This document shows positions 26,131 to 63,596 of a stretch of 64,000 nucleotides of DNA, piece by piece. Position 1 is the first letter of the stretch. The number at the start of each line of letters is the position of its first letter. Where the stretch lies: assembly GCA_900323505.1 (NCBI GenBank), contig OOIN01000007.1, forward strand, positions 620,001 through 684,000, in the 5' to 3' direction. This DNA comes from Ustilago trichophora. Taxonomy: Eukaryota; Basidiomycota; Ustilaginomycetes; Ustilaginales; Ustilaginaceae. The translations under genes were made by a program, and so were the position numbers. Under the pieces are notes generated by a model. The model made no database searches, was not told where the DNA came from, and saw nothing but the letters and a program-made list of their open reading frames with translations.

Positions 26131-28108
26131 CTATGGTGATCGCGACAGGTGACTGACGACAAATGACCGTCCTAACCTTGGCTCAGACTGTAGACGTTCC
26201 CAATTGACTGGTTTGGTTGATTGATTCCCCGGCAGTGCAGCGCTATGGTGCCGAGATGCGCCTAGCAGCGCAAACACTCTTCAACCCCGCTCGCCGCTCC
26301 AGCCCTTTTCTCTCTTGTTGCTTTTCCGCAATGCTTCCTTCTTAGATCCTTGAGCTCCGCTGTGGGTGGTATTGTATTGCTTGTACTACCAGCCTGCTTC
26401 CACCCCGGATCCCGCTGGCTGGTTCACCGTCAGTTGGAGATGCCCCTCTCTTTCCCCAACAGAGAGCCAATCTGCTCGTCGGCCCAACGCGGGCCTTGCA
26501 GTGTTGCATGACATCCAGCGCAACAATGCCAGTGTCGGTAAGCTTGACCCCATGTTCCACTGAATGCATCGATGTTCTGGGCCGTCTCCGTCCGCTACAG
26601 TCTCCCTTCTTGCTTCTGATCATCGCCCTGTTCTACTGATGCACGAGTTGTGTGGGGTCACGATCACTCTACTGCTTCTTTGTAAGGGTGAATCCTTCAA
26701 AGGTCCCGTCAAAAGCCAAGCAACCTGTCTTTGGCTGTCCATGCCATTGGATGCTGTGCCTTAGCTTGCTCGGCTGTTGTTCAAAACTAAATCAGCGGTC
26801 TCGGCACACGTCACCACAATCAAGTGGAGAAAGACCACCCCGTACGATCACCCTGCTCACATCTCCTCTCGATCTCCAACACACGGCCTATCAACAGAAT
26901 CTTTCGGGGATGTGCCTCACCTCGCAAGCTGAGATTGCCATGAATTGGAACTCGCAGAAACATAAGGTATTGTGGATGCGAGGGGAGGCGTGTTGAGGGA
27001 GAAGCTCTCTTGTTAAAGCCAACATTAAATCCTATTTCGGCTAAACCGTCAAAACGTGGAGTGACGCACAGACATCTCCATCGTCGAAATGCACAGTATG
27101 GTTGGACAGTCCTGTGCAATGCGATTGTGGCTATGGGTCATCGTCGTATGATGTTTGCCTGTGTCTACATTTCAAGATCAGATCGTGTTTCCCAACATGT
27201 TGACATGCACGAGCCCGATCTTGATCTCCTTGGCTCCGAGTGCCTACCGCTGTCTGAGAGGAAAGGCTTTTGCAAACAAGGCTAGATTCTGTGCGTTAGC
27301 GGACACCTACTGTACTTCTCTTCTTCTTGATCTCCGACGGTATCCGCCGCGCAAGCTCGTTGCGGTCACTGCATCCACACAGTCCATGCAACAGCGTGTC
27401 TGAAGCCCGATTCATGCATCATGTGTCTTCTTTCCGGACATTGTCACTGTTTACTACTGTATATTGTTCAATCGCCTCTTGGGCGTGATCACGTCGGGCA
27501 ATCTGCGTGTGTCATCCTCAAGCCTATTTACTGTAGCCGGCTGGAGCATCGGCTAAGAAGACTTGGATATGCACATAGCTGCACTAAGAAGGGGCGTGCT
27601 GGATTGGACTTATGCCAGAGATCTACCGACCAAACAAGTCATGCTTGTTCCACGAAGTTGGCGCTTGAATTCAGTTATAGCCTATGCCGCCAAAATCGGA
27701 TCGCTCGTCGGACAAAGATCCGAAAATTTGTCTGCGTTGATGTCCTCGTGGCTTGCAACAGCTACCTGTCAGATTTCAAAGACTCTTGTTGCTGCCATCA
27801 TCCGATTTGTCACCGCCACATCCGCGTCAAATACATACACAAAGCGCCGTCTAGAGTCTCCTTGACCTTTATCTGCGGGTTGAGCAAGCCAGCAATTCAC
27901 AGTCGAGATCCAAGAAAGTACTAAGAAGTTTGCGGGAGAGCAATCCGTTGAAGCGGCCAAGCGCGGAAGTTCGGAACACGGATAGAATTTCTCGCAGGCA
28001 AACGCGTTTCGCAGGGTCCACGCCAATGCTTCTCGCTGTCATCTTTAGGCTAGATTCCACCCCACCACCTCACATAGGGCCAACTAGCCACCATTGATCG
28101 ACAACAAC

Positions 28109-29989
28109 ATGGACGGCCAAGCAGAAGGCTCTTCACAGCACAGGCGAGTCCTCCTGCCACCTCGCTCCGAGTATCGTTTCGAGCTCGAGCCGCACGAACG
28201 ACTTTCTATCCGACTCGTTCAGAACCGCACGCAGACCGGTGAAGAACCTGATGCAGAGATCTTTGGAGCTGAACTCGTCGGGGGTACACAAGATCGATGG
28301 TATCCCTTCGGAGATGAGGCTAAAGCTGCTGTATCTTCCTGGAGAGGCGCCGAGATCGAGATCGCTGGATCCGCCTCTACAGAATACCTCGCTGACGAAC
28401 CATCCCCAGTCTACACGGCCTATTCCAACCTTCACCTCTACCTCGAGCGCAAACGAATCGAGGCACGACAGTCACTGCGTGCAGATGCCAAGCTACTATC
28501 GACTCTAGCGGGTTCCGTCCTTGACCCGAGCTACATTGCCCCTCGCACAACAGACCAAAGCACCGAGACCGAATCCGATCCCAGCGGCACTGCTGCATCG
28601 ACCGTATACAGACCAGAGGGGCAGGGTCCAAGAGTCATGGTTCTCGGTCCAGAGTCGGCAGGCAAGACGAGTCTGGTCAAGTTCCTCGCCAACTATGCTC
28701 TCCGTTCGCCCGCAGTTGCGAGCTTGGGCAAAGGCGAGGCAGGGAAAGTCGCAGAGAGTCTTCGCACGGGCGGAGATGGAATCATCTACCCCAACATGGA
28801 ACAAAACCTTTCTGAAGAAGCCAAGAAGGCAAAGCGCCAAGAAGAGAAGCGCAGTGATATCACCGGATGGTGGCCAGTCGTAGTCAATCTCGACCCGAGT
28901 GATGGTGCGCCGCCATTGCCGTGTTGTCTCTCCGCCTTGCCGCTTTCACCACTTCCCCTTGCATCGCTGCCTTCGCCCTCTCCAGCTTTCCCCTTCGGAA
29001 CCAACACCAGCACCACAGGAGCCATCCCGCCAGGCACATCCACCGCCCACGGCGTCGCTCCCCTCTCCCTCTGGCTCGGCAAAGAAAATGTGCGCGAGAA
29101 CGAGCGCCATTTCCGCCGCGTCGTCGACTGGCTGGCCGAAGGCGTCGAGCGACGGCTTGCGCGCGATTTCCGCTCGCGCATGTCGGGTCTCCTCATCGAC
29201 ACTCCCGGCGTGATCACCGCAGACGCAAGAACTAAATACGCCTTCATCCAACACTGCGTCAGAGCTTTCAAGATCGATACCGTCGTTGTCCTCGGCCACG
29301 AGAAGCTCAACCTGGAAATGACCAAGATCTTTGGCAACCCCACAGTTGAACCGCTTGAGATTCCAAACTCCCACGGTCAGAAGCTGCCCAGAGTCAATGT
29401 TATCAAGTTGCCCAAGAGCGGTGGTGTGGTAGAGTTGGACGAAATGTACAGAGCCCGTTTGAAGGCGTTGCAGGTCAAGACGTACTTCTATGGCGGGTCG
29501 AGCACTTCCACTGCAAATCAGGAGGGAGGCGTACCAAAAATGGTTCTGCCTGGACATGCTGATCCGTTGGGTGGAGTGCCTTCGCTCAGTCCCTACAGCA
29601 CTACGATTCCCTTTGATTTGTTGGAAATATACAAGGTCGGGCAGGAGAGCCTGGCTCCATCGTCGGCGTTACCCATTGGAGCGTCCCGAACAGTCACAGA
29701 GACCCAGCTGGTCAAGTTGGACCCAACCAACTCGGCTGCGGACCAGACCAGCTTGCTCCACAGCGTACTTGCTCTGATCCAGCCGCCCAGAGGTGGTGGA
29801 GGCGCGGGACAACCAGACTCTTCCACCAACCCAACAGACGATGAAATCATTGGTGCACCCATCTTAGGCTTTGTCCACGTCGCTGACATCGACACGGTCC
29901 GTAAGAAGATCACTGTACTCTCGCCTAGCACCGGAAGGCTCCCATCAAAGACGGCCATCTTGGGTTCTTTGGATTGGCAAGACGTCTAA
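28109..29989 (+). CDS. CLP1: Clp1 mRNA cleavage/polyadenylation factor
   Basis: 626 residues from the ATG at 28109 (context ACAACATGG). Clp1 is part of pre-mRNA cleavage factor IA/II and bridges to Pcf11; relatives are polynucleotide 5'-kinases. The N-terminal beta domain has LPPRSEYRFELEPHERLSIRL and WYPFGDEAKAAVSSWRGAEIEI. The P-loop VLGPESAGKTSLVKFLANY lies near residue 177, followed by GWWPVVVNLDPSDG, GLLIDTPGV and a C-terminal domain ending SLDWQDV. It is longer than the usual 420-450 residues. The extra length comes from Ser/Pro-rich insertions, for example residues about 275-320 and 465-480. Acts in the nucleus. Confidence 0.95.
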   Translation: MDGQAEGSSQHRRVLLPPRSEYRFELEPHERLSIRLVQNRTQTGEEPDAEIFGAELVGGTQDRWYPFGDEAKAAVSSWRGAEIEIAGSASTEYLADEPSPVYTAYSNLHLYLERKRIEARQSLRADAKLLSTLAGSVLDPSYIAPRTTDQSTETESDPSGTAASTVYRPEGQGPRVMVLGPESAGKTSLVKFLANYALRSPAVASLGKGEAGKVAESLRTGGDGIIYPNMEQNLSEEAKKAKRQEEKRSDITGWWPVVVNLDPSDGAPPLPCCLSALPLSPLPLASLPSPSPAFPFGTNTSTTGAIPPGTSTAHGVAPLSLWLGKENVRENERHFRRVVDWLAEGVERRLARDFRSRMSGLLIDTPGVITADARTKYAFIQHCVRAFKIDTVVVLGHEKLNLEMTKIFGNPTVEPLEIPNSHGQKLPRVNVIKLPKSGGVVELDEMYRARLKALQVKTYFYGGSSTSTANQEGGVPKMVLPGHADPLGGVPSLSPYSTTIPFDLLEIYKVGQESLAPSSALPIGASRTVTETQLVKLDPTNSAADQTSLLHSVLALIQPPRGGGGAGQPDSSTNPTDDEIIGAPILGFVHVADIDTVRKKITVLSPSTGRLPSKTAILGSLDWQDV

Positions 29990-30203
29990 TTCCACGGTGC
30001 TCTGTTGTGTACTTTTCAATACTCTAATCGTTCTTTGACAACGCAGCCCGTTCTCCTCTGTTCTCCTCCGTGCTTTGCCTGTGCTGAACAACCATTTGAA
30101 TATGCTGGTAGACATCTCTGTCGATAGAAAGGATGATAGATCAAGAACAAGAGAGAAAGTCCAAAGAAGGCGAAACAAAGTGAAAAAAAAAATCCAAAAG
30201 ATT

Positions 30204-30294
30204 GCGCCGAAGGGGAATCGAACCCCTATCGCCTGCTATCAAGCTTCTATCACTTACTGGAAGGCAAGCATTCTAACCATTAAACTATCGGCGC
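30204..30294 (-). tRNA. tRNA-Gly (UCC) with a 20-base intron
   Basis: Acceptor arms GCGCCGA/TCGGCGC pair perfectly. The T-arm is GGGGTTCGATTCCCC. The anticodon stem CTTGC/GCAGG encloses loop CTTCCA+A with anticodon TCC. A 20-base intron starting GTAAGTGATAG follows position 37. The mature length is 71 bases. A run of ten A on the plus strand at 30183-30192 gives the Pol III T-terminator. Confidence 0.93.
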
Positions 30295-30660
30295 TTGATT
30301 GTGTCTGCTGCAAGAAGCTTTTGTTACATATACACATCGCACTGAATTTTGATTAATCATGCTCTACGATGTTGCTTGGCAGCACCAGACCGTTTGTTCT
30401 AAGCTGTCATACACACATGTAACATGTAAGATTGAAGTCATCATGATCATGGCTATTCTTGGTTTCACACAGTGACACTCATTGCTGCTCAAGAGCCAAG
30501 TCCAGTATATTTGGTCACAGCCACTTTGCCTCAGACAAAACTAGCCTGAATGTCTTTCCAGCTGTGTAGAAGCCAAATGAACTCAAAATATTCAAGAGGA
30601 TTTGAACATTTAATGGGAATCTTGAGTCACCTTTGTAAAATACACTTTGAATGCACTGAC

Positions 30661-31351
30661 TGTTAGGTTCACACCCTAGGCCCCACAGCCTGGCTAGAAA
30701 GCCATGGAATTGTCCACTGTGTCAGGAGCAGCAGATCTCACATGGGGGACACTGCAGGGTAAGCACAATTCCACAGCCATTCAGTCCTTAATAGTTCTCC
30801 CCCCCAAACAAGGAGCCCTCCTTGAGGCCTTCCTTGTTGCATGTATTGCTTAGTTAGCTCATCTAGGCCAACAGAGGTGTTTGCACACCTTCCATGGACT
30901 CTCCTGTTCCATCTGTATTCCACAACCTCTCTGTACCTGAGTTCCCCTTGTCCTGACCATGGCTGCTGGTGGACACTCTCCACAGCAGTTCTTCAAGACC
31001 CTATGGTTCTGACACTTTTATGTCTCTTGCTGCATCTCTCATTGATCCCCAGCTCTGTCCTTTGCATTGCTTGTTGTGCACCAATCACTGGTCTGAACTT
31101 TGCATCTTGTTAAGAGGGCCCTAGGGGTCTAAATACTGTGGAGTAGTCTTACGGCCTAGGACAAGGATGGAGCTTGTGTGAGCGGTGCACACAGCCACTG
31201 TAGGTGGGGAAGGATCTACTAAGACAAGGGACAGGGGTACAGGACCCAGCACCCTGCGCTGGCGCAAGGCCACCTGCGCCCTGCAGCATTCTTGGCCGAG
31301 TGGCACCAGGCACATCAGGCCGCTGAGTGCAACTGTTGGGTTGGCCTAACA
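30661..31351. repeat. possible solo LTR
   Basis: A 691-base segment begins TGTTAGG and ends CCTAACA, a 7-base terminal inverted repeat with TG...CA ends as in Copia-type LTRs. The 5-base flanks (ctgac / ggcag) do not match, so no target duplication supports it. A second TGTTGGG...CCCAACA pair exists at 31334 and 31860, so the boundaries are uncertain. Confidence 0.3.
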
Positions 31352-31748
31352 GGCAGCAGTACCTTCAACAAAGAAGGCCACTCCAGCCTTATCACTTTTG
31401 CCAACAGGGTCCCATCTGAGCCTTAGCTCTTCACTCTTCTTCATCTTCTCTTGTTCCATGAAAATTGTCTCTTCTTACAGTTAAAAGATTTTCTAAGCTT
31501 GGCTTTGCATTCTCTTTGCTCAACAATGAATTGTTTGACTACATTCTTTGTGATTGGTTGTGTGTCTCAATTTGCATGAGAATTGACTCAGTTGTATTAC
31601 TAGAAGAGAGAGTTCCAAGAACTCTTTCAATCTTTCACACTTTCTCCAGACCTGTTTCTTTTTGAGACTGATCCCAATTTTCACCACAACCTTTTTCTGG
31701 GCTGCAAAGCACTGGCTTTGAGGTCAGTGCTTGTGTGATGATGATGGT

Positions 31749-31750
<2 letters not shown>

Positions 31751-31836
<86 letters not shown>
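31751..31836. repeat. (GA)43 microsatellite
   Basis: An uninterrupted 86-base GA run inside the CpG-depleted block. Open frames across it are artefacts of the repeat. Confidence 0.97.
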
Positions 31837-31842
<6 letters not shown>

Positions 31843-32088
31843 CAACAACAAGTCCCAACAGATAGAATGGGTGCACATGCACTTGTTGTCTATGAATTAA
31901 AATGGCAACAGGTTTTGCTGCTGTGAAGATTGAGTGCAAAAATTGTTGCTGAAACAGTCATTTGCCACCTTGTGGATGCAAAAGCTCAACTCCGCCTCGC
32001 AGCTTTTACAGTATATGCAGGCCATTTTCTGAAAAAAGAAAGTGGACCTGGCAAACCCCATTATTCTTTCCGCAAAAGATCAACATGG

Positions 32089-32124
32089 TGGAAGGCAAGC
32101 CTCTTACCTTTGAACTATCGGTGC
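32089..32124 (-). pseudogene. 5' half of a tRNA-Gly-like sequence
   Basis: Read on the minus strand it begins GCACCGATAGTTCAAAGGTA and ends CTTGCCTTCCA. It matches the first 37 bases of the tRNA-Gly at 30204-30294 with few changes. One change, GCG to GCA, fits CpG decay. No matching T-arm or 3' acceptor strand follows, so it is a broken copy. Confidence 0.65.
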
Positions 32125-32352
32125 AAACTTGTTGAAGTTGTCAGCGTTGTGATACATGTACATGTCTTTCCCATGTTGATTGACAAGTAAAAGCACGTCC
32201 CATGGCGATGCTCTGCCATGCATAGACAGACGCAAGAGCGTCTTGCACACTCACAAAAGAGCAATACACGAAAGAGATCAAAGATGGATTGACAGCTGGT
32301 GGTACAGAAGATGAACGTTGATACATGAGCGCAAACTGCGTGATGGTGAGAC

Positions 32353-35300
32353 TTAGTCCTCATACACGCCTGCGACGAGACACAAGTTTCTCGGAGTGAA
32401 ATGTACATCCAACACTGGCGTCCTCTTAGTGTGGAAGGTGGCCACGCAATCCGCGCTAGTGTTGATCAGATCCGCTCCGTTCGTCTGACTTGCTGCTGTT
32501 GCGCTCGCCAGCCCTCCGCTCGCCAATTGTACTGCTGTTGGCGCGCCTCCTCCGCCTCCGACGGCTGTCGCTGCTGCTGCTTGTTGCGCCTCCAACGATC
32601 CTTTTGCGAGAGCCTTTCGCGCGCCTCCAACCGAGCGGACATCCCAGCATCGAACGCTACAATCCTCACTACCGGTGACCAGCAGTGATCCGTCGGCGGA
32701 GAAGTCCATCGAGTAAATGCGCTCACTATGACCCCACATCTTCTTGATCCTTCTTCCGCTTGCCAAGTCCCAGAGAGAAATGGAAACATCGTTGATGTGA
32801 GCTCCTTTCGAGGTCGGGTCGATACCATCGACGCCAGCGAACTGTGATACGGTACCGTTGCCTGCGGCTGCGGAGGCGAGGTAACGGCCATCCGGGCTGA
32901 TCTTGAGACAGGAGATGGGAGATTGGTGCCCCACAAACAGTCGGACACATGCTCCCCGTTGAACATCCCACAATCGACAGCTTCGGTCAGAAGATCCCGT
33001 GGCAAGGTAGAGGCTATTCGGGTGGAAGGTGAGACAGTCGACATCGGATAGATGGGCAGCGTACATGCGCAGCGGATTGACCCGTTCCGTGCTCCACAGC
33101 CGTGCCGTCTTATCTGCAGAGGCCGTGGCGAAGTAGGTGCCGATCGGGCTCCACTTGATGTCCCACACTGGATGCTGGTGGCCCCTGTACGCAACTAGGG
33201 CGCTGTACGTGTCGAGGCTCCACAGCCTAGCCGTCGCGTCTGCAGAGCAACTCAAAAGGTGTCTGGGCGCCGAAGCAGACCCTCCAACAGGATCGAAGTC
33301 TACCCCGTACACAGGGCCCGAATGACCAATCAATCGCCTGGTGGAATACGACTCTGCCTCGCGTTGCCTCGCCAGGGTCCTGCTGTCGCGAATCGAAGAG
33401 AGATTGGGATTGCCGCGAATGCCACGTAGCTTCTCGCCTTTGAGCGACCATACTTGGACGAACGATTCTTCGAAGCCTGCAGCCATGAGCGTAATATCGT
33501 CTGAAAAGGTTGAGCATGTGATGCCGTCGTCTGCGTCGTGAAAGGTGTAAGCGCAGACCGAGGGCAGAGCAGCTACACGGGCAGCGTGAGCTCCTTGCTC
33601 GCCCAGGGTGTTGATGGTAGGGTCGCGTACGCCCGAGCTGAAGGTAGACGATGTGGAAGAGGATCCGTTGAGCAAGGATGGATCGAGACGAATGCGTTTG
33701 CGGGCGTCGCGGATGCGCTGGACCTCGCGTTTGACGTCGACGGTGCGGAAAGTAGGTGCTTGTGGTGGAAGGTCGGTGATGCTAGCTGCAAGCAAGCCGA
33801 CAGAAAAGTCGGGACCATTGGAATTGCTTGGCCTTGTGTCAGCGGCCGCATTAGGTGGAATAATTCCCGGAGCCGAAGCAGGTGGTTCCGACGGACGTGC
33901 TGACGCCGTTCTGGCCCTTGTTGCATCATCCCCATCCTCGGCAGCGTCTGCGGCGGTGGCATCCTGCATAGTTGTATCCCCATCTGGGTCCTGGTTGGCG
34001 TTGCTCGCCTCGCTGGCTTCTTGCACTGCGCCGGCGCCAGCTGTGGCAGAAGCTGATGCCTCGGCATTCTTACTCTTGGCCTCGTCTGCTTGTACTGCAG
34101 CGATGGTCTCTTTCTCGCGGCGCTCTACTTCCTGCAGCTCCTTTTGCACCTCTGTCTCTAGCCTTTCTGTCAAGGGCACGGATGGATGAAGCTTGAGCTG
34201 CGGTCCGGCGGCTTTCGCATTGAACTCGGCGAGTGCATCGCCCTCCGAGACAGCGTTCTTTGCCAACGAAGCGTGGATGCGGCTACGTCCTGCTGTGCCC
34301 GTGGTGACACTGGAGTACGTCGGTCCAGCACCCGTGAGACCAGTTCCCTCTTCCAAGACAGCGGCGTCAATCTGGTACGGCTGAGCAGCAAGCACCTGGA
34401 TGCGACATCGCTCGTTGATAATTTTGAGCATGGCTTCCCGTCCACGCCTTGCGGGTCCCTCTGCTTCTTCCGAGCCGCTCGTCGAGCCCGAGACAGGACC
34501 ACCTCCGTCGGTCAACCAGCCAAGGAGAAGGCTAAAGACGGTATTGGACATCTTGACGACATAGCGTTCGGATCGGAAGCGCTGTGCGAGAGCATCTGAC
34601 TGGATGTGCGACGGAAGAGCAAGCGAACGAATCTGAGAGAGTAGTGCAGTATGGGTCGGGAGGAACGACGGTGCATGTGCAGTGTACAAGGCAGATGCGG
34701 CTGGACCGTGTCCCATGAGCACGAGGTCGAGGAACGAATGGACAAAGAGTGGCAGAAGGATCGGAAGCAGCTCGGGCTGGTAGATATCGAGACTTCCTTG
34801 GCACCAGGATTTGAGCATGGCAAATCCCCTGGCGCGGTCGGTTGGGTCGAGTAGAAGAGCTTGTGTCGCTGCAGCTGAGACATCGCCATCCTCTGCAAAG
34901 GTGAGATCTGCATCCGCGGCTGCATGCTTGTCTTTGGCTGCAGTATCATTACCCTCCTTGTCCTTGTCACCATCCTTGTCGGCAAGCGTTCTCGGCGCAT
35001 TCTTGGCTGCGAGATCCTCAAGGCCAACGGTGGGAGCACGACCAAGCACATCGGCAGCTGCGGCTGCTTGCTCTGCAGTGGCACCAGAAGCCAATGCGTC
35101 GAGCTCAGCCTTGAATGCAGCTTCCACTCGATCGAAACCACGCTTTTGAAGGTATGCAAGCACGGCAGCTGTCATGTCGGGGCTGCTAAACACGCTCCCA
35201 GCCGCAGCTTCGTTTGTGGTCACTGCTGAGCCGGATGCACTGGAAGCATTCGCCACCGGAATTGAAGTATCCTTTCGTGTTTGCGCTGCCGAATCAGAGA

Positions 35301-35382
35301 CTTTTGCTGCTCCTTGTATGCCCTGATCGTGGGCATTGGCCTTCTCATCGGCTGCCGCCGCCGCTGGTGTGGGTGCAGGCAT
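32353..35382 (-). CDS. TAF5: TFIID subunit TAF5 (WD40 repeats)
   Basis: 1009 residues from the ATG at 35382; the frame upstream has only a GTG. TAF5 is a scaffold of TFIID, shared with SAGA in many fungi. A LisH motif lies at about 68-95 (TAAVLAYLQKRGFDRVEAAF). The TAF5 N-terminal helical domain spans about 178-295 (ARGFAMLKSWCQGSLDIYQPEL...VVKMSNTVFSLLLGWL). A long Ala/Ser/Asp-rich linker follows, then WD40 repeats over roughly the last 390 residues (e.g. GHSGPVYGVDFDP, GHQHPVWDIKWSPIGTYFAT, ADKTARLWS, GHQSPISCLKISPDGRYLAS). One loop between repeats carries an insertion (GNGTVSQFAGVDGIDPTSKG). Acts in nuclear Pol II initiation. Confidence 0.95.
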   Translation of the reverse strand: MPAPTPAAAAADEKANAHDQGIQGAAKVSDSAAQTRKDTSIPVANASSASGSAVTTNEAAAGSVFSSPDMTAAVLAYLQKRGFDRVEAAFKAELDALASGATAEQAAAAADVLGRAPTVGLEDLAAKNAPRTLADKDGDKDKEGNDTAAKDKHAAADADLTFAEDGDVSAAATQALLLDPTDRARGFAMLKSWCQGSLDIYQPELLPILLPLFVHSFLDLVLMGHGPAASALYTAHAPSFLPTHTALLSQIRSLALPSHIQSDALAQRFRSERYVVKMSNTVFSLLLGWLTDGGGPVSGSTSGSEEAEGPARRGREAMLKIINERCRIQVLAAQPYQIDAAVLEEGTGLTGAGPTYSSVTTGTAGRSRIHASLAKNAVSEGDALAEFNAKAAGPQLKLHPSVPLTERLETEVQKELQEVERREKETIAAVQADEAKSKNAEASASATAGAGAVQEASEASNANQDPDGDTTMQDATAADAAEDGDDATRARTASARPSEPPASAPGIIPPNAAADTRPSNSNGPDFSVGLLAASITDLPPQAPTFRTVDVKREVQRIRDARKRIRLDPSLLNGSSSTSSTFSSGVRDPTINTLGEQGAHAARVAALPSVCAYTFHDADDGITCSTFSDDITLMAAGFEESFVQVWSLKGEKLRGIRGNPNLSSIRDSRTLARQREAESYSTRRLIGHSGPVYGVDFDPVGGSASAPRHLLSCSADATARLWSLDTYSALVAYRGHQHPVWDIKWSPIGTYFATASADKTARLWSTERVNPLRMYAAHLSDVDCLTFHPNSLYLATGSSDRSCRLWDVQRGACVRLFVGHQSPISCLKISPDGRYLASAAAGNGTVSQFAGVDGIDPTSKGAHINDVSISLWDLASGRRIKKMWGHSERIYSMDFSADGSLLVTGSEDCSVRCWDVRSVGGARKALAKGSLEAQQAAAATAVGGGGGAPTAVQLASGGLASATAASQTNGADLINTSADCVATFHTKRTPVLDVHFTPRNLCLVAGVYED

Positions 35383-36089
35383 CTTGTTGGTACGTCGTGA
35401 CACGATGAGCCCCTTGCGGGTGTAGTGCAGTGCTCTTTGGCCGAGTACGGTGTTGCCAGAGGTTGCTGCTCAGCTGTACCTTGTTGAAGAGTTTGATAGG
35501 TGACGAGGCGAACAAGTGCGAATGGATGGTGGCTGTACGAACAAGGCCAAGGTCAAGGAGGGGAATGGGGGGAGAAGAACGTCCATGCGAACGCGAACCG
35601 CCATCGCGCGGAAGTCGGGGACACACTTTTTTGTGTTCGAAGTGTTACGCCTGAGAACTAACATCTTGATGCAAAATTGTCTCCACAAGAAACTGAAACT
35701 CACTCGGATTTGTGGCTGCAACTTGGCACGGAAAAGGCGTTACGCCCATGTTCCCGACTTGGTTAGCCGCCAAAAGTGTCATGGGCAATGACGTTTTTGA
35801 CGTTTGCTCGAGCTTCGACATATTGCCGTAAAGTTTCCCCTTTCTCTTTCATCATCCTCAAGCTTTGCACCAAAGTTTGTCTTTCATGCCTGCTCATTCT
35901 ACATCTCTCCGCTGATTAGCTGCAACCACCACCATCCTTCTCTCGCCGGACACAATCCGTTCTCCCGAAACCACACTGCCAATGCTCTGATTGGGCTTGT
36001 GAAAAGATTCGACCGACCGATAAGTAGGACAACCTCACAACGAGCCTCGCCGTTTCTCTCATCCTTCAACGTTAACAGTGATTGCAAAA
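35383..36089. other. divergent promoter region of TAF5 and the acyltransferase
   Basis: About 700 bases. There is a pyrimidine-rich leader before the acyltransferase start (35830-36065). No RNA gene or repeat is visible. Confidence 0.4.
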
Positions 36090-38294
36090 ATGTCGACTTC
36101 AGCAAGTCAGCAAGAGACTTCGTCTCCCGCCGCCAAGGTCAAGCATTCCGGCAAGGCTGCCAACGCCGAGACTAGCAAGTCCGTAAAATTCAACGGAGTG
36201 GGAACCAATAGTAGTCCCAGCCTTCAGTCATCGTCTCGTTTCGTCCGCATGAACGGATTGAGCAGCACCAACAGCAATGGCAACGGCCATACCAGCTCTT
36301 CTATCGGAAGTAAGACTTTCTTCCCGCTTTTTCCCGGAGTCGCTTCCGCCCTCGACGAAAGTCCTTGGACTTCGGGTTACAACACGCCAACCCTCGGAGC
36401 TGCTATCCACAACGTTGCAGAGCGTACCGAAGGTGCCCTGCAAAAGATTGCAGAGCAGCGTAAGGGCGGTATTCTGGAACGTATGGCACGCATCACTATC
36501 AGCGTCGCAGACCAGATCGAGCGTCTTCTGCAGTGGGAGATCTTCAGTCGTGTTAACGCTATCGGTGGTATTGACAACATGTGGCTCCTCCTCGACGGTA
36601 TCGACGCCTTCAACCCCGTTTGCACCGCCACCTACACTTTCAAAGAGCCCGCAAAGCTGCAAGACATTAAGGACTCGATGCTTCGTCAGATTGGCCACTT
36701 CCCAAAGTATACACAGAAACTCGCCGATGTTGGCCGCTTCTTCCACGGAACTGTCTTTATCGACGATGAACATTTTGACATTGATCACCATATGCGTGCT
36801 CACACGCTCCCTGGTAAAGCAGGCAAGCGCGAGCTCGAAAGCTTCGCCTCTGACTTTATCGCTCAGGGATGGGACTACTCTCGCCCGCTCTGGGAGGTCG
36901 CAGTGCTCGAAAACTTTGTCGATGAGCAGAGCGGCGCCAAGGGTGCTTGTGTCATTCGCGGACATCACACGTTGGCGGACGGCCAAGGCTTCATCATGAG
37001 CCAACTCTTTGTCACTTCGCTCGGACCCAAGCTCGAGAGCATGATGTCCGAGGGCGCCCAGTTGCTCAGCGACGCCAAGCAGGGCAAAGCGTTACCATCG
37101 CGCATCAACAAGAAACTCGCCAGCCTCGACCGTTATCACGGCACTATCGCACTCCAGCTCGTCATGATGGCGCTTTACTGGATCAGCTGGCTCATCTCTC
37201 TCGTCACCGACCTTGCTGGCTGTGTCACGCTTGCTGTTTCGACCAGCTTCTTTTTCCTCACCACTTTCTGGCGTCAACGCTACGTCACAGCTAGCTACTC
37301 AGGTCCCAGAAAGTATGAAAAAGAGTTTAGCGTTTCCAAATCGATCTCGCTCTCCGACGTCAAAATCGTCTCGAAAGCCTTCTCTGGTGTTCAACCGGGC
37401 ACGCTGCTCGACAAAGTGCAGGGCGGCAAACGATACTCTCGTCCTCTCATTGGCACCCACCTCACTGTCAACGATATTATATGCACCGTCATCGCCGATG
37501 TCATCAACGACGAGCTAGATCGCCAAGCCCACCAACCTGGTGTATTGAATCAGATCCGCCGCTTTTCGCACAAGATCCTTCCCTTACCCATCGGCATCAT
37601 GATCCCCATCTCGATCCGCGAACCTGGTGACTGGTCTCTGCGCAACTTATCTACGGGCGGAATCGCCTACCTGCCCACCACCAAAGGTTTCCCTACTGAC
37701 GTCCACATCCTTCACAAACGTTTGCACACCACTCATCGCCGCCTCAACATCCTCAAAAACTCGCTGCTCCCTAAACTGCTTTTCCATGGGATACAACTTA
37801 CAGGCCAAATCCCAGCCATCTTCCCGATTCCGTTCGGCTTCCTACCCAAACATCGTTTCAACCTCCTGCGCTATCCCTCGGTATGGGTCACCGAGCGCAT
37901 TCTCTCCTCCTTTACTGCCGTTGTCACCAACGTGCCCTGCCCGAGCAAGCATCGAATTGAGCTGGCCGGACAGGAGGTGGTGCGCTGGACCGCCCTGCCT
38001 CCACAAGGCGGTAAAGGAACACTGGCAATCGGAATATGCTCTTACGGCGGAGACTTCAGCATCTCGATCTCGGCAGATAGGGTCGAGGGAAGTGAGGGCG
38101 TAGCAGAAAGATTGACGGACAAGTTTGAACAACGGTGGAAAGAGTACGTCGAGACGAGTCGCGGATTGATCAAGGACACTGGAAGCGAGAGCAAGGACAG
38201 GCCAAAGCGATCCAGTTCTCGCGCGTCAACTTCATCCGAGAAGAAAGTAAAGAGGCGTCGCTCGTCTGCGTCCACTTCCTCTGCTTCCTCTTAG
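36090..38294 (+). CDS. WS/DGAT-type acyltransferase (wax ester synthase/diacylglycerol acyltransferase family)
   Basis: 734 residues from the ATG at 36090 (context CAAAAATGTCG). The acyltransferase active-site motif HHTLADG (HHxxxDG) lies near residue 292, in RGHHTLADGQGF. The C-terminal half has the family's conserved ND block (LTVNDIICTVIADV) and the segment AVVTNVPCPSKH, near the NVPGP signature. A hydrophobic stretch near residues 350-395 (LVMMALYWISWLISLV...) probably forms one or two membrane segments. The family esterifies acyl-CoA to fatty alcohols or diacylglycerol for wax or storage lipid. The substrate here is not known. The Ser-rich head and basic Ser-rich tail (KKVKRRRSS) are extra. 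This family is commonest in actinobacteria and plants, so its fungal spread is worth checking. Confidence 0.88.
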   Translation: MSTSASQQETSSPAAKVKHSGKAANAETSKSVKFNGVGTNSSPSLQSSSRFVRMNGLSSTNSNGNGHTSSSIGSKTFFPLFPGVASALDESPWTSGYNTPTLGAAIHNVAERTEGALQKIAEQRKGGILERMARITISVADQIERLLQWEIFSRVNAIGGIDNMWLLLDGIDAFNPVCTATYTFKEPAKLQDIKDSMLRQIGHFPKYTQKLADVGRFFHGTVFIDDEHFDIDHHMRAHTLPGKAGKRELESFASDFIAQGWDYSRPLWEVAVLENFVDEQSGAKGACVIRGHHTLADGQGFIMSQLFVTSLGPKLESMMSEGAQLLSDAKQGKALPSRINKKLASLDRYHGTIALQLVMMALYWISWLISLVTDLAGCVTLAVSTSFFFLTTFWRQRYVTASYSGPRKYEKEFSVSKSISLSDVKIVSKAFSGVQPGTLLDKVQGGKRYSRPLIGTHLTVNDIICTVIADVINDELDRQAHQPGVLNQIRRFSHKILPLPIGIMIPISIREPGDWSLRNLSTGGIAYLPTTKGFPTDVHILHKRLHTTHRRLNILKNSLLPKLLFHGIQLTGQIPAIFPIPFGFLPKHRFNLLRYPSVWVTERILSSFTAVVTNVPCPSKHRIELAGQEVVRWTALPPQGGKGTLAIGICSYGGDFSISISADRVEGSEGVAERLTDKFEQRWKEYVETSRGLIKDTGSESKDRPKRSSSRASTSSEKKVKRRRSSASTSSASS

Positions 38295-49815: not shown

Positions 49816-50567
49816 TTTGAAAGTTTACAGTTCAAGTGGATAGATGAACAAGCGCCGTAGATAATGAGGCCGTGATTATATAGCTGTCGACGACGGTGAG
49901 CGGATAGTGTCCGTGAATGATTGCGTAAGAAGGCTTGTGATGGAGGCCGAGGCTGTGACGATGAATACGAATCTCAAGTGGACGCCGTCCGTGCATAGCC
50001 AAGCCCAGAATGAGCCGAAGCCACGCGCCGTTCCGCTTTCAGCAGAGTTTCTAAGACTCAAGCCGCGGATTCAGAGCGAAGGTGTTGGATCCAGGTGATC
50101 GAGTTGAGTAAAACGATCGTTGCCCGATCTATCCGCGCTTGCACGGAACTCACTGCTGGATCAGGCACAGTCTGGCTTTTGTTCAACCCATGGTGGCATA
50201 GGAAGAGAAAATGTGTAGCAGTCACAATAGTCTGTTCAACAGCAACAGTGTGGCTGAGTTAAAAGAAGTAGATCAACTCTCGAGCAGTGACAAGTTTGTT
50301 GACCATCACAGTTGCATGGTGCAGGAGTTGTCACTCTTCTTGTTGCTGTACAATATGAATTTAACATCTTTGATTTGGACCGGAACTCGCGACTTGCATC
50401 CCGACTTCAGTAGTGACGGCTTTCTAACCGGTCCTTCTCTGGCAGAGACCGTTGCCCCGTTGCGCTCTGTCCAACAGGCTATCACACCACAGTATCCTCC
50501 CTTAAGCCATCTCGTCACCTCGTCCCGTTTTTCGCATCCGCATCCCACCATCCTCCCACATTCCGAC
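49816..50567. other. divergent promoter region RIB4 / EHD3
   Basis: About 750 bases. The EHD3 frame is open upstream to 50211, but that stretch has no presequence character or family match and is read as leader. Confidence 0.4.
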
Positions 50568-52397
50568 ATGAGGACGTCCAAACTCGTTCGCAGCTCCTCA
50601 TCCCTCCTTGTGCGATCCCAAACCACGACTACCGCCGCTCGTCTCCCCCGCACTGTCCACCCCACTGTAATCTCCAGCATGTCGCACAAGCGCACATCCA
50701 TCGCTACCAGCAGGCTCAATCAGGTCTCTCGTCAATTCTCCTCCTCGCATCCCGCCACCATGTCTGCCTCGACACCCAACCAAGCCTCGAGGGGCGCCTC
50801 TGCTGTAGATGAAAACAAGCTGGTCAAGCTGCTCTCCGAAGGTGGTCTGCGCACCATCTTGCTCAATCGCGAGAAGGCGCTCAACGCGCTGAATCAGGAG
50901 ATGGTCAACCTCATCGAGAAGGCGCTCGACGAGTGTGTGCAGTCCTCCACGTGCAACGTGATTCTCCTTCGTGGCGTCGGTCGTGCTCTCTGCTCCGGTG
51001 GAGACGTGCTCGCTGTTGTCAAAGCTGCCGACTCTGAAGATCCCAAGGTGCGCAACAAAGCCCTCGACTTCTTCCGAACCGAGTTCCAGCTCGACTACAA
51101 GATCGCCAGGCTCGGCGAGACTGCCAACGCACACAGCGCCGGAAAAGGCGCCGAAGACGCACGCACACTCGCCAAGAGCAAGGGTGGAGACTTGAAGAAG
51201 CCCAAGACGTTTGTTTCTGTCATGGACGGCATCACCATGGGTGGAGGTGTCGGTCTCTCGGTCCATGCCCCATTCCGAATCGCTACCGAACGAACGATGT
51301 TCGCTATGCCTGAGACCGGCATTGGGTACTTCCCGGATGTCGGTGTCACTCGCGTGCTCGCACGTCTCGATGGACGTATCGGACAGTACCTCGGCATGAC
51401 GGGCGCCAGGATCAGTGGAGAAGAGGCTTACCTTGTTGGCTTGGCTACTCACTACGTCCCCTCTTCGAGCATCGACTCTATCGCTCATCGTCTGAGCACC
51501 CTCCCTGCTGAGAGCGCACTCAATCCTTCCCTCGTCTCCTCCGCCTTGAGCGAGTTTTCGTCTGACCCCCTCGCCGCCAAAGACATCCTGGACAAGTCTG
51601 CATTCTTTGGCGACCGTCGCATTGCGCTCGACTACGTCTTTGGTCAGCTCTCGTGCGAATCCATCTTCTCCTGTCTCGAGGAGATCTCTTCGGCAAAGGC
51701 CGACAGTCAGGCGGCTGCGGAACTTGCCCAGCTTGGCCTACCCTCCATCACCTCTGAAGTCCAGGCTTGGGCTACTCAAACCCTCAAGGACCTCAAAACC
51801 AAGTCACCACGCGCACTCAAGATCACTCACCAGGCCATCCTTGAAGCAAGAAGGTTCGACGTCGAGGAAGCCTTCCGATTCGACATGCGTCTTGCCACGG
51901 CCTTCTGCGACCTTTCCATCGGCCGAGACTTTTACACGGGTGTAACTCACGTTCTGGAACGGGACCCGGCCACTGGCAAGCGTAGGACTGGTATTGCCGA
52001 CTGGGAACCGGCTTCGCTCGACAAGGTCTCGGACACCACCATCCGTGCTCAATTCTTTAGCGATTTGGAAACCGCCAAGAAGGCCGGGTTGAAGATGGAC
52101 GTTCCGCACCTCTCTGCTATCCCTGAGCCTTTGACCAACAAGGAAGCTCGACAGGCTAGAGACAGCTTGTTGAGGGGCAAAGGACCGCTCAAATGGGAGC
52201 AGAGCCACAACGTGTTTGCTCTTCCCAGTGAGGCTGAGTGCGCGGCTCTGTTGGAAGGAAGCCACCCCGCAGCTGCAGCGGTAAAGCCCGATGCCAGCGA
52301 ACTGGTCGACTGCTTGAAGAGGCACAAGGGAAGTCTGCCCGGTTTGGAATTCAAGGTCTTGGATTGGGTCAAGAGACAGGAAAGGCGACAGGCTTAG
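50568..52397 (+). CDS. EHD3: 3-hydroxyisobutyryl-CoA hydrolase, mitochondrial
   Basis: 609 residues from the ATG at 50568. Its Arg/Ser/Thr-rich, acid-free head (MRTSKLVRSSSSLLVRS...) is a mitochondrial presequence. The crotonase fold shows GVGRALCSGGDVLAVV, the oxyanion-hole segment VSVMDGITMGGGVGLSVHA, the catalytic-region MPETGIGYFPDVG and YLGMTGARISGEEAYLVGLA. This is the HIBCH branch, which hydrolyses 3-hydroxyisobutyryl-CoA in valine breakdown. Yeast Ehd3 is also found on the mitochondrial ribosome. A roughly 30-residue insert (near ETANAHSAGKGAED) and an approximately 100-residue C-terminal extension are visible. An inner ATG at 50761 could make a form without presequence. Confidence 0.93.
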   Translation: MRTSKLVRSSSSLLVRSQTTTTAARLPRTVHPTVISSMSHKRTSIATSRLNQVSRQFSSSHPATMSASTPNQASRGASAVDENKLVKLLSEGGLRTILLNREKALNALNQEMVNLIEKALDECVQSSTCNVILLRGVGRALCSGGDVLAVVKAADSEDPKVRNKALDFFRTEFQLDYKIARLGETANAHSAGKGAEDARTLAKSKGGDLKKPKTFVSVMDGITMGGGVGLSVHAPFRIATERTMFAMPETGIGYFPDVGVTRVLARLDGRIGQYLGMTGARISGEEAYLVGLATHYVPSSSIDSIAHRLSTLPAESALNPSLVSSALSEFSSDPLAAKDILDKSAFFGDRRIALDYVFGQLSCESIFSCLEEISSAKADSQAAAELAQLGLPSITSEVQAWATQTLKDLKTKSPRALKITHQAILEARRFDVEEAFRFDMRLATAFCDLSIGRDFYTGVTHVLERDPATGKRRTGIADWEPASLDKVSDTTIRAQFFSDLETAKKAGLKMDVPHLSAIPEPLTNKEARQARDSLLRGKGPLKWEQSHNVFALPSEAECAALLEGSHPAAAAVKPDASELVDCLKRHKGSLPGLEFKVLDWVKRQERRQA

Positions 52398-53392
52398 ATT
52401 CAACCAAACATCTGTATCGACCCCTCTCAAAAGTTCGACAGCATGCGTTTTGCACAAGGTGACTCAGTCTCGCCTAGGTGTGTGAGTCAGTGTCAGCGGG
52501 ACGCCCGATGTGATGCGACGAGATGAATGATTCGTATGCGGACCCTCCTGAAGGTTCGACAAGAGGGCGTTCCGCCATTCCGGCTAGCTCGACTATGAGC
52601 GTGTAAGAGCCAGATAGAATGTGACGGATGTAATGGAGCTTGTTGGCGCTAGGATCCTGTAGCAATGCGCTTCATGCTCCAACGCGGTGAAATGGTCGAA
52701 AGTATCTCAGTAGGATCACAGCAAGGAATGCAAAAATGAATCAGCTTCGCTCCCGAGGTGTGTCGACAAAATCGGACTAGCGACAAGTCGACTTTCTTTA
52801 CTTCAGCTTCAGTTGTGCAGTACTTGAGTGACCAATTTACTCGTAGCATTCTGAGCCATCGCCTAGAGGCCAAGAGCTCGAGTGCGCTCAGCTCTCCCTT
52901 GCGGCACCTGGATGAGCTCGTACTTTTCATTAAAAAGAACCCCCCAACCATCTCATGGTCCAAAAATGTGCCCCTCACGTTGCAACACACTATGCGCACC
53001 CTCTTCCTCCCTCACAATCATGCTTCTGACAACCTTCGACACTCTTTGCCCTCTACAACTTTGTTGCAATCGAGTGGCGACACCGATCTACAGGCAGGAG
53101 GAGGAGGAGGAGGAGGAGGAGGAGGAGGAGGAGGCGAAATACCGCATCACAACCTCAAACAGAATATTATAAGCATCACCATCGCCAACGATCTCCGAAC
53201 AGCATCAGCATACGCCTCTCACATCAACTTTTAGCTGCAACCAGCATTGTCCGATAAAAGAACCGGGTTCACTGTTCATCCGAACCCTGACCAAGTTCGA
53301 GCTCAAGGGATTGCGGAGGTCCTGCAGGAGGAAATATGTTCTAGAGGAACAACGGACAAAAATAATCTGAAAAAGGCAAAAAAGAAAGCTGT
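52398..53392. other. intergenic region with (AGG)13
   Basis: No gene is supported. It holds the trinucleotide run at 53096-53134 and, at 53378-53383, an A6 tract that serves as the T-terminator of the minus-strand tRNA. Confidence 0.45.
53096..53134. repeat. (AGG)13 microsatellite
   Basis: A pure 39-base AGG run. Confidence 0.95.
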
Positions 53393-53490
53393 GCGTCCGA
53401 GGGGAATCGAACCCCTGTCTCCTGCTAACCGAGTTATTCCGTTTCCAAATAGGTGGAAGGCAGGAATAATGACCATTATACGACAGACGC
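53393..53490 (-). tRNA. tRNA-Gly (UCC) with a 27-base intron
   Basis: Acceptor GCGTCTG/CGGACGC (one G-U), T-arm GGGGTTCGATTCCCC, anticodon stem CCTGC/GCAGG and loop CTTCCA+A with anticodon TCC. A 27-base intron beginning CCTATTTGG follows position 37. The mature length is 71 bases. Confidence 0.92.
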
Positions 53491-55526
53491 TTGGATTGAT
53501 GACAATGACGTCGTGATGTACAACTATATACTGGACGAATGCTTCCATCAAATGCTTTCTTGCTTGCCTTCTGACAAAGTGACCGCTTCCTAGCTGCCCA
53601 ATATTGCCTTGAATAGCTTTTCAATGAGTCGCAAGAACAGATGAGAGCAACATAAGGTCAGACCTTTTGTTTGTGCTACCGATGCTGAAACTGGAACGGG
53701 CAGAAAGAGTATCATAGATGAAGAAGAGGCGATCCATGCTGCCACTCTGAGAGAGTGAGACCACGTCTTGATTTCTGAGAGGTGTGAGCTCGGGCCTCCT
53801 CTTTTGGTGGAAGAATGTGTCGACGCGCGCTGGATTTCACCTTTCTCTTATTCTGAAGGCTGTCAAGTGAGTGGAACGCGTCTTGTTGCGTGTATTTTCT
53901 CTTTTCTGTAGACAAGGAATTCGAATTTGAGAAGAAGCATACGAATTCAATTTTTGGTCAAAGCCCGGAAATTTTTTCAAGTCGAATATGTGATACTGTT
54001 TTTGTGGAATTCAAGTGAAGCGTGTTCCGCACGCAAGAGGTTCAAGGTGATCACTAACCCACCGATAAGAAAAGTCGGATCACTCGATCTTCAATACAAT
54101 TAGTTATTTTGAATTTCCTTCTTTTTGCGTCGAGCGAGCACAGGTTTCAAGGCTGGGTCTGCTCCTGCCTTCTGCGCCCAATGGGCCTCAGCTCAACTGC
54201 CGGTGTGATTCCAAGAGTGTAGTGAGTGACTGTCTCGCACACACGCTGGGATTGCCCCTCTCCTTTGGCATCTCTGGTTGCTGCGCGCTACTGCGTTGAG
54301 CTGTGCTGTGCTGTTCTCCTCGTCTTTTTGACTTGGCCAGATGCTCTGGCCCTTTTTCGTCCGCAAACCACAGCAGAGAGCAGAGAGCAACAGCGAGAAA
54401 TTGCTGAGCAGGGCCTCCTCGCCATCGCATCCGACTCGAGTCTGTCGCTGGTCTTGCCTCCGCCAACGTTGGCCTCACCACACCATCATCTCTCCCACCC
54501 AGCTGCGTCTGTTCTCGCTCCATCCACGCTCAGCTGCGGCTACGTCCATCACACCACATCATTGCAGCTTTCGTCTCGTCTCTGTCTCGATTTAACTTCA
54601 ACGTCACTCGGTCACGCGGTCAGATTTGGGTCGTTCCTGTTCTCCTTTGTCTACGATCCTGCTCACACGACAACGGCGATCACCGAATCGACTGCACTCG
54701 TGTTCTCCCCATAGCGGCATTTCGGTATCTCACCTATCCGTCCTTCGCGCTCACTCGATCGGACGCATTGCTTTTACCCTGAGAATTTTTCTCTGCCACC
54801 TTTGACATCGGCCTCTTGCATATCGCCGGTCAATAGCGCATCTTTGCTACCAAGCGCACTTCTCAGCAGTCCCATCGCCTTAGTCCTACACTCGGACTTC
54901 GGCTTTACAGGCGTTCAGCTCATCACATAAAGCAAGCTCCAAGCTTCTTCCTTTCTCTGTAAGTGTTTATTCTTCAATTTCGATCCATCTTAGGATCCCA
55001 GCAGCGCAGATTTTGGTGAACAGCAGGCACCGCTTCTCTGGCAACTCAGGAGTTTGTCAGCTTAGCATGGCTTCGATGCCTCGCGCAGCGGATGCAAAGC
55101 AGAAGCAGTAGGAAATCGCAGTAGCAACCAGTGCCTCATACGCTCGCACGCGTATGCTCGATGATCACCCCGCCACTGTGTCGAGTCGGAGCATGCAGTT
55201 TGGAGGATAGATTGCATTCTTGTGCGACGATCCGCCATCAAGCGGTGCAAGAGATCCATCAATCTGGCGATTCGGTATGGGTGGCTTTTTATGTGCGAAC
55301 TGCAAAGCCCATATCCGCGATGCCCCGACCGATTACATGATCAAAGAACTGACGATCTTGTCTCCTACCTCTCTTCTGTCCGCATCCATCACACTTCAAC
55401 GCGTTTGGATCTCCCGAAACCACGGTACTTTGTGCATGCATTCAACGCTCTCGCCTTTCTACTCCACTTGCGGCCTTGCATCACCATTCGATCCTACACT
55501 CCTCAGGCCGCCTATCTTTTAGCACA
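53491..55526. other. 2 kb upstream region of the PP1 gene
   Basis: No ORF here has family support (54226..54714 is judged leader or spacer). AT-rich around 53920-54125. A C/T-rich stretch from 54440 suggests a long 5' leader. Confidence 0.4.
54959..55522 (+). other. candidate 5'-leader intron of the PP1 gene
   Basis: A strong donor CTGTAAGTG at 54959 and an acceptor CTATCTTTTAG ending at 55522 sit four bases before the ATG at 55527. Splicing would remove several upstream ATGs. No transcript evidence is available. Confidence 0.35.
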
Positions 55527-56522
55527 ATGGCTGACAACACTACCCCCGAGGTAGATCTCGATAATGTCATCGACCGTCTTCTCGAGGTGCGCGGCTCGCG
55601 TCCCGGAAAGCCTGTCCACCTTGAAGAGTACGAGATCAAGTACCTTTGCTTGAAGGCAAGGGACATCTTCATCAACCAGCCCATCCTTCTCGAGCTTGAA
55701 GCCCCCATCAAGATTTGTGGTGACATCCACGGTCAATATTACGACTTGTTACGTTTGTTTGAATACGGTGGCTTCCCACCCGAGGCCAACTACCTCTTCC
55801 TCGGAGACTATGTCGATCGTGGCAAGCAGTCGCTCGAGACCATCTGCCTTCTCCTCGCGTATAAGATCAAATACCCCGAGAACTTCTTCATCCTTCGTGG
55901 CAACCACGAGTGCGCATCCATCAACCGAATCTATGGCTTCTACGACGAGTGCAAGCGCCGCTTCAACATCAAGCTCTGGAAGACATTTACCGACTGCTTC
56001 AACTGCCTTCCCATCGCCGCCATCATTGACGAGAAGATCTTTACCATGCACGGTGGCCTTTCGCCCGACCTGCAGAGCATGGAGCAGATCCGTCGTGTGA
56101 TGCGACCCACCGACGTGCCAGACACCGGTTTGCTCTGCGACTTGCTCTGGTCGGATCCTGACAAGGACATTTCTGGATGGTCAGAAAACGATCGCGGTGT
56201 CTCGTTCACTTTCGGCCCAGATGTCGTTTCTCGGTTCTTGCAAAAACACGACATGGATCTCATTTGCCGAGCGCATCAGGTCGTGGAGGATGGTTACGAG
56301 TTCTTTGCCAAGCGACAGCTTGTCACCTTGTTCTCGGCGCCCAACTACTGTGGAGAGTTTGACAATGCGGGCGCAATGATGAGCGTCGACGAGACGCTTC
56401 TTTGTTCCTTCCAGATCCTCAAGCCAGCGGAGAAGAAGCAAAAGTACGCATACGGTGGTATCAACATGGGCCGTCCCGTCACACCTCCCAGGAAGCAGAA
56501 GAAGAAGTCGGATGGCAAGTGA
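55527..56522 (+). CDS. GLC7: Ser/Thr protein phosphatase PP1 catalytic subunit
   Basis: 331 residues from the ATG at 55527 (context CACAATGGC). All PPP metal and catalytic motifs are present: [30 protein letters not shown] and [29 protein letters not shown] is the loop that binds inhibitors. The tail carries RPVTPPRK with a Cdk-type site at Thr319. PP1 dephosphorylates many targets in mitosis, glycogen control and transcription through regulatory subunits. The length and sequence are typical of the highly conserved family. The tail KQKKKSDGK is short and basic. Confidence 0.98.
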
Positions 56523-57443
56523 GTGGGCTCAACGCTCCAGCTCGGGGCTTGGGTGCAAGGGTGGCCGTCAGCTCGGGAACAAGGATTGTGGCTCGGCGGA
56601 GGGCAAAGAGCAATCGGCTGGGCTTCACTGGTATGCCAGCAGGCAGCAACATTCTTGGCAGCGGTGCGATTCGGATCAACTACAGCTCAGCAATTTGTCT
56701 CGCTTTCTCCTGGATTTTTCCTTCTTGCTCCGGCGCTCAGTCGTGATGTACAACAAGCAACGTTCTCGGGTCACTCCAGCGTCATTTGTCATATGAGGAG
56801 CGTGCGGCCTAGCAGTACCAAATTCACACAACACTCGCAGCTCGATGATACTGCTCTCCATTTGCACCAATCGACGTTAGTAGTTTGACTTCTTGCCTCT
56901 CTTATGGTCTCGCGCAGTCAACATTCAGGGGAAAGCGCCTTTAGCAACCCTTGTCATGCGGCAATATTGTGCGTCTCCATCCATGTCTTCGTCGCCTGCC
57001 GCAGCCCTCATTGATGCTGCGTGCCTGCTACAGCCCTCTCTCCGCCGTCATAACACTGCCACCCCTTCCCCCTCCTTCCCTCGTTCATGCCAGCCGTCCT
57101 TTCCTCTTCACTTCATTGGCCGTCACCATCTCCCTCCTTTCTCTGTGTTGTTTTTGTTTTCCTTCTCCACCATTTTTTGTTTTCTCTTCGATACGATGCA
57201 AATGTGAATCATGTCCCCTTCTGGCCTTGTTGTATGCCTTTACGAGCGTGTGCGGTTCTATCCCCTCATTGTGAGCGACTCTAGATCCAAATGTGGCGCA
57301 AACGAAGTCGATCTAAACGGACATGACTCGAGCACAACCAGAGCAAACACACGCTCAAAACAACTGGGTTAAGCAGATGAACTGGATGCATTGTGACGTG
57401 ACATAGTATAAAAGATGTGCAGGGGTTGCAAGAATGAGTGGAT
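56523..57443. other. convergent 3' intergenic region
   Basis: 920 bases between the convergent PP1 and kinase stops; T/C-rich around 57060-57190. No gene is supported. Confidence 0.4.
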
Positions 57444-63271: not shown

Positions 63272-63491
63272 TCTGGCAGCGTTGTCGATCTGAGAATGAA
63301 GTTCTTTATTTCGTTCAATGGAGCTTCTCTTTGCTTCGTAGTTCCGGCCGGTCGTCCTTACTGATCAGATAAGCGTTGTCGATGGGGGATGTTGGACGTC
63401 GAGAAACAAAAGTGTTGGAAAAGTGTTGGACCCTAAAAATCCTCCACTTATCCGTCTTCCGGAACTTCGCTCTTGGCCAAAAAGCAAAAAA

Positions 63492-63596
63492 GTGGAAGGT
63501 GGGAATCGAACCCACGACCTCAAGATTTTTATGGCGCCATTCTTTCAGATGAAAGATATGTTGCAATCTCACGCCAAACCACTAAGCCTCTCCCAC
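63492..63596 (-). tRNA. tRNA-Cys (GCA) with a 34-base intron
   Basis: Acceptor GTGGGAG/CTTCCAC (one G-U), T-arm GTGGGTTCGATTCCCAC, anticodon stem TGAGA/TCTTG with wobble pairs and loop TTGCAA+A with anticodon GCA. A 34-base intron beginning CATATCTTTC follows position 37. The mature length is 71 bases. T6 lies directly downstream on the minus strand (63491-63486). Confidence 0.85.

Follow-up and report, generated by a model that had tools for sequence, protein, structure and literature searches.

A CpG-free intergenic block between the CLP1 and TAF5 genes in a Ustilago trichophora assembly: probable repeat relics around a decayed solo LTR

Genes and features at the locus

The window, i.e. the whole stretch of 64,000 nucleotides that was analysed (GCA_900323505.1, contig OOIN01000007.1, positions 620,001 to 684,000), contains an intergenic block flanked on the left by the CLP1 gene (28094-29989), whose product has three Clp1 Pfam domains over the cut-off and CLP1 proteins as its PDB matches, and on the right by the TAF5 gene (32353-35403, minus strand), whose product is 95% identical to a Ustilago trichophora protein over 1009 aa. 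The features between these two genes are given below, where L with three digits denotes a fetched region of the assembly and C with a number a contig of the same assembly.

30203-30294, minus strand: tRNA gene with an intron, beside the block (Rfam RF00005, 58.3 bits; no named anticodon by ARAGORN)
30392-31107, no strand: CpG-free block A, older repeat relics (0 CpG; TpG 1.62 and CpA 1.61 of expectation in 30393-31106)
30396-30610, minus strand: possible, weak Tc1/mariner-like end (58% alignment to L014 beside a DDE_3 frame)
30774-31014, no strand: unclassified repeat common to L009, L013 and L016 (73-77% identity to the window piece)
31108-31351, plus strand: decayed solo LTR of 244 nt with all 7 CpGs of the block (ends TGTTA...TAACA; CpG observed/expected 0.34)
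31352-31992, no strand: CpG-free block B with a GA microsatellite near 31750-31840 (0 CpG in the counted parts 31351-31750 and 31841-31992; CpG-free run to 31992)
32083-32132, minus strand: truncated second copy of the tRNA 5' half, TAF5 side (86% over 44 nt, 32089-32132, to C6)

The intact gene at 30203-30294 is presumably a tRNA-Gly, and the truncated copy shares a 23-nt repeat with it at 83% identity. Comparison of window positions 32034-32132 with L054 (1306-1461) showed that the tRNA gene on the TAF5 side, intact on C6, lacks its 3' half in the window, with the intact copy lying on the CLP1 side. At Rfam's own thresholds the window contains three tRNAs in total, and those at 53392-53490 and 63491-63596 (-) were missed by ARAGORN, probably owing to introns. 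A tRNA-associated hot spot of insertion was considered and rejected, as a CpG-free run of more than 250 nt was present only here among 30 fetched loci of the 60 listed tRNA matches.

CpG depletion of the block

The original prediction described two stretches without CpG, 30393-31151 and 31323-31992, with abundant TG and CA, and both observations hold. No CpG-free run in the window is longer than those at 30392-31151 (760 nt) and 31322-31992 (671 nt), and the next in length reaches 136 nt. Within the 1600 bases of 30393-31992, 86.3 CpG are expected from the base composition and 7 are present, all of them at 31152-31321 between the two runs and inside the LTR, whose limits were set one base further left in this count, to no effect on the outcome. 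When the block was subjected to 2000 mononucleotide shuffles, the longest CpG-free run had a mean of 86 nt and never exceeded 218 nt. In the CpG-free parts, with the GA microsatellite excluded, TpG and CpA reach 1.57-1.62 times the expected frequency, as compared to 1.14 and 1.16 elsewhere in the window, and this excess is the mark of lost CpG. The TpA dinucleotide is not raised (0.53 and 0.28 in the two CpG-free blocks versus 0.50 elsewhere in the window).

A composite of repeat relics

A search of the assembly with 30393-31992 returned at least 14 matches, of which one is the block and 13 are pieces spread over eight further regions, match counts of this search being lower bounds. In all eight, about 10 kb around the match contains a CpG-free run of 273-917 nt, and so the several genomic copies anticipated by the original prediction exist as dispersed copies of parts of the block, every one in CpG-poor surroundings. 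Since the matching pieces vary from region to region, the block is a composite of relics. Hence the earlier view of a decayed element stands in so far as degenerate repeat relics are present, but what lies here is not one element, as a solo LTR is enclosed by several relics.

The assignment of individual relics differs in strength. The alignment of 30396-30610 to L014 scores 48, as compared to 27 +- 3 for 15 shuffles, and the DDE_3 match in L014 (E=4.9e-4) lies below the Pfam cut-off, while the three window frames around 30420-30703 contain no Pfam transposase. For block B, the one match is a weak one of 31840-31992 to L016, with no clear second copy, and no continuation of the left-hand element past the LTR was seen at 31351-31740 upon testing against the eight regions. 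A Pfam scan for coding relics in ten pieces of CpG-poor regions, taken from open frames of at least 70 aa, gave the L014 DDE_3 match as the sole informative one.

Some further features of the CpG-poor islands were observed. Cys/His-rich open frames are present in L016 (5375-6711, plus strand) and L012 (1064-1951, minus strand) and have no Pfam match over the cut-off; a protein search with the 296-aa L012 frame found no database relative at E<=1e-5. A 950-nt stretch common to L010 (5249-6197) and L012 (3654-4608) has a CpG observed/expected ratio of 0.92 and adjoins CpG-poor DNA in the same islands, and it may be either a younger nested element or something protected; the one frame scanned from it (L012 3447-3920) gave no Pfam family.

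The solo LTR between the two CpG-free runs

The segment 31108-31351 is common to L010, L011, L012, L014 and L015, and a 319-base query from L012 retrieved six regions of the assembly, L012 itself and the window among them. Among the copies examined, the four that have both ends (window, L010, L011 and L012) all show inverted TG...CA ends, and target duplications of 5 bp flank two of the three two-ended sister copies (AAGAT in L010, AAGTG in L012), with none at the window LTR or at L011. A SINE reading of this segment, suggested by a GGCCGAGTGG stretch that we take to resemble a tRNA A-box, was dropped, as the copies have LTR ends and two carry the 5-bp duplications.

Across five copies or part-copies of the LTR, CpG observed/expected ranges from 0.34 to 0.46, and it is these copies that supply the more CpG-rich relatives which the original prediction had looked for. 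Because all 7 CpGs of the block lie inside the LTR, it probably arrived after the rest of the block. The LTR would have inserted into an already CpG-poor relic and would now be part-way through its own decay, an order suggested by CpG content, where a CpG-richer start would look alike.

C-to-T changes at CpG in repeats and in genes

The proportion of C changed to T at CpG versus other C was determined in four repeat pairs, with no piece used twice, and amounted to 0.29/0.09, 0.54/0.16, 0.89/0.15 and 0.20/0.07. Three of the four pairs give p<0.006, and the first (0.29/0.09), to which the window LTR belongs, falls short of significance (p=0.059). The homologues of the flanking genes have values of 0.12/0.08 for TAF5 and 0.13/0.08 for CLP1. 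Differences between repeat copies are thus concentrated at CpG, as had been foreseen, except that the oldest pieces, i.e. the older element compared in four pairs, retain one CpG site, and for this reason the CpG-to-TpG step is not visible in the block itself.

DNA methyltransferase genes

A search of the assembly for PF00145 gave six matches in four genes, and the presence of DNA methyltransferase genes, named in the original prediction as something that would add weight, was thereby borne out for two enzyme types with two copies each, DNMT1-like on C38 and C32 and DNMT5-like on C24 and C19. Over 680 aa, the C38 gene shares 99.4% identity with a U. trichophora protein annotated as related to cytosine-specific methyltransferase, whose best matches are DNMT1 chains (E 5.6e-54). 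For the C32 gene, the identity is 93% with an unnamed protein, across 690 aa, and 81% with the U. trichophora DNMT. Relatives of the DNMT1-like protein among the matches listed come from Sporisorium reilianum, Melanopsichium pennsylvanicum, Kalmanozyma brasiliensis, U. hordei and Testicularia cyperi. PDB 7r76_A is matched by the first 1073 aa of the C24 product and the first 1093 aa of the C19 product (E 3.4e-218 and 2.9e-217); this entry is named DNA repair protein Rad8, and we take it to be the Cryptococcus DNMT5.

A probable graveyard of methylated transposable elements

Taken together, the composition of the block, its other copies, the LTR anatomy of the sister copies, the CpG-specific excess of C-to-T changes in repeat pairs and the enzyme genes point to an intergenic graveyard of dead transposable elements, in which CpG would have decayed to TpG and CpA through methylation (rough probability 0.75, as judged from sequence). 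Old fragments of elements would have landed between CLP1 and TAF5 and the CpG cytosines in them would be, or would formerly have been, methylated by the DNMT1-like and DNMT5-like enzymes of the host, with conversion to TpG and CpA until none remained. An LTR retrotransposon may later have inserted into this relic, collapsed to a solo LTR and begun to lose its own CpGs. Such a later insertion with CpG loss still under way would account for the LTR being the sole CpG-bearing stretch inside the block. Between the two causes left open by the original prediction, methylation or repeat-induced mutation, the CpG-specific C-to-T changes and the enzyme genes favour methylation-linked decay of repeats, and RIP of the CpA type finds no support.

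The alternative that survives best is a RIP-like mutator aimed at repeats with a TpCpG preference, as in Microbotryum and other Pucciniomycotina, which would have driven the depletion and made the decay of methyl-cytosine secondary. Its context preference was addressed in 28 alignments of at least 300 nt kept with duplicate loci left out, namely four repeat pairs and 24 controls, which align homologous sequence in the surroundings of tRNA, methyltransferase, TAF5 and CLP1 genes, for the most part from one subgenome with the other (see below). In the L010/L012 pair, TpCpG is changed at 14/32 sites versus 8/82 for other CpG (p=1.1e-4); the corresponding values for the copia elements L063/L064 are 7/36 versus 16/262 (p=0.012). 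The pooled controls have 232/1611 versus 522/3266 (p=0.15; lowest single p 0.085), with totals of 3118 transitions and 2179 transversions and 869 at CpG. A separate count over five repeat pairs gave 27/74 versus 38/368 (p=1.6e-7). A TpCpG preference is hence seen in two less-decayed repeat pairs and not in the 24 controls, which is the one possibly new point. No report of such a preference in Ustilaginaceae was found in the literature on RIP in smuts and on TpCpG, as covered in part, with most subscription papers outside the coverage.

The same reading is further favoured by the strong excess of transitions among copia elements. The L063/L064 pair, with frames of 1358 aa that are 98.8% identical, differs by 35 transitions, 25 of them at CpG, and 5 transversions, and the L067/L068 pair (723 nt; CpG observed/expected 0.88-0.89) by 17 transitions and no transversion. 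Several observations weigh against it. Just two repeat pairs are informative, since the other two of the four (1/1 versus 2/11, and 4/4 versus 10/10) say nothing on context; only 5/17 of the transitions in L067/L068 are of the CpG type; coding constraint may shape the copia differences; and the elements are not destroyed, as 11/18 RVT_2 matches lie in open stop-free frames of at least 700 aa. In total, the copia and gypsy copies of the assembly are represented by 18 RVT_2 and 42 rve matches. Nor is there an enrichment of TTG where depletion is complete (1.01 and 1.14 versus 1.17 in the rest of the window), as expected if all CpG contexts end up lost. As the driver of the depletion, a mutator of this kind appears rather unlikely.

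As a broader proposal, of modest probability, a TpCpG-biased C-to-T mutator directed at repeats might operate in Ustilaginaceae that kept DNMT1 and DNMT5; the CpG-free islands would then be what it finally leaves behind, and nested insertions like the LTR would form a clock of its action. If such a mutator is real, the signature of Pucciniomycotina extends to Ustilaginomycotina, in which Horns et al. reportedly found no such hypermutation in 2012.

It is very improbable that the block is a CpG-poor single-copy sequence, functional or derived from a CpG-poor donor, rather than a repeat relic. Block B, without a clear second copy, would fit such an origin, but neither finding that the original prediction had set against itself, a conserved single-copy sequence of equally low CpG or a gene transcript of this composition, was seen in the sequence data, and block A and the LTR have copies elsewhere; moreover, the block is missing beside TAF5 in the other subgenome and its TpG/CpA excess marks lost CpG. 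Least credible of all is RIP of the Neurospora type, acting at CpA through a RID enzyme, which likewise leaves C-to-T decay of repeats, but CpA was not the target in the repeat pairs (6/58 changed in L014/L015 versus 16/18 for CpG), TpA is low with TA/AT at 0.61 and 0.42 in the CpG-free blocks versus 0.54 in the rest of the window, and all four PF00145 genes read as DNMT1-like or DNMT5-like.

Relation to known systems

CpG-poor repeats, read as possible RIP, are described for Ustilago hordei and U. bromivora, and less markedly for Melanopsichium pennsylvanicum, in the accessible part of PMC5106213, citing Laurie et al. 2012. The block, as one more case of grass-smut repeats without CpG, is a further instance of these published CpG-poor repeats and is ordinary in itself. 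Going by that part of the source, the published figure is a genome-wide average over repeats, whereas here one block is resolved into relics and a CpG-bearing solo LTR and the change is shown at CpG, not at CpA.

Outside the smuts, the sections available of PMC4352252 report that Microbotryum, Melampsora and Puccinia combine CpG-type C-to-T decay with a Masc2-like DNMT1, a likeness that extends to the CpG signature and to a DNMT1 gene other than RID; unlike those fungi, the present assembly represents another subphylum and has a DNMT5-like gene as well. RIP-like hypermutation at TpCpG in Pucciniomycotina, as presented in the accessible portion of PMC5381629, shares with the present data the TpCpG preference (here in two repeat pairs) and the strong transition bias, but here the copies are few and no CpG context is left in the blocks where depletion is complete. 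Neurospora RIP, going by its description in the same sections of PMC4352252, has in common the C-to-T decay of repeats and differs in that the change here is at CpG rather than CpA and long open retrotransposon frames remain.

Ustilago maydis is without DNA methyltransferase genes according to the consulted passages of two reviews, one of which quotes low 5mC by HPLC, and on that account it cannot show the effects of methylation on smut transposons. In the present assembly, the two kinds of enzyme occur alongside transposons that differ in how far their CpG loss has gone, and pairs of homologous genes can serve as internal controls. This makes the cause of CpG loss in smuts, decay of methyl-cytosine versus a TpCpG mutator, directly testable.

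Two subgenomes and changes in gene order

The assembly, of 38.8 Mb, resembles two subgenomes, with the contig pairs C6/C7, C32/C38 and C19/C24. Identity to U. trichophora is 100% for TAF5 of C6 and 99.4% for the DNMT of C38, as compared to 95% for TAF5 of C7 and 81% for the DNMT of C32; by these values, the assembly could stem from a hybrid, from a diploid or from a mixed culture, and of the two subgenomes the window appears to lie on the one other than U. trichophora. Between the subgenomes, the TAF5 sides share about 91% identity. On C6, the tRNA is 47 bases from the start of the TAF5-side homology, and hence the block is absent there. Either a gain or a loss of the block followed the divergence of the two subgenomes, or the block is a mark of the rearranged gene order.

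Gene order in the window differs from that of C6:863288-902310, the window regions concerned being 29991-32203, 50145-50380 and about 51.0-53.7 kb. Window 32203-37327 is in forward orientation from C6:876948, while three segments are inverted, namely 53688-61000 (C6:863288-870597), 50358-51000 (C6:897150-897779) and 27971-29991 (C6:898789-900810). In the window, two of the junctions coincide with CpG-poor patches, namely the block and 50145-50380, the latter with CpG-free runs of 136 and 99 nt.
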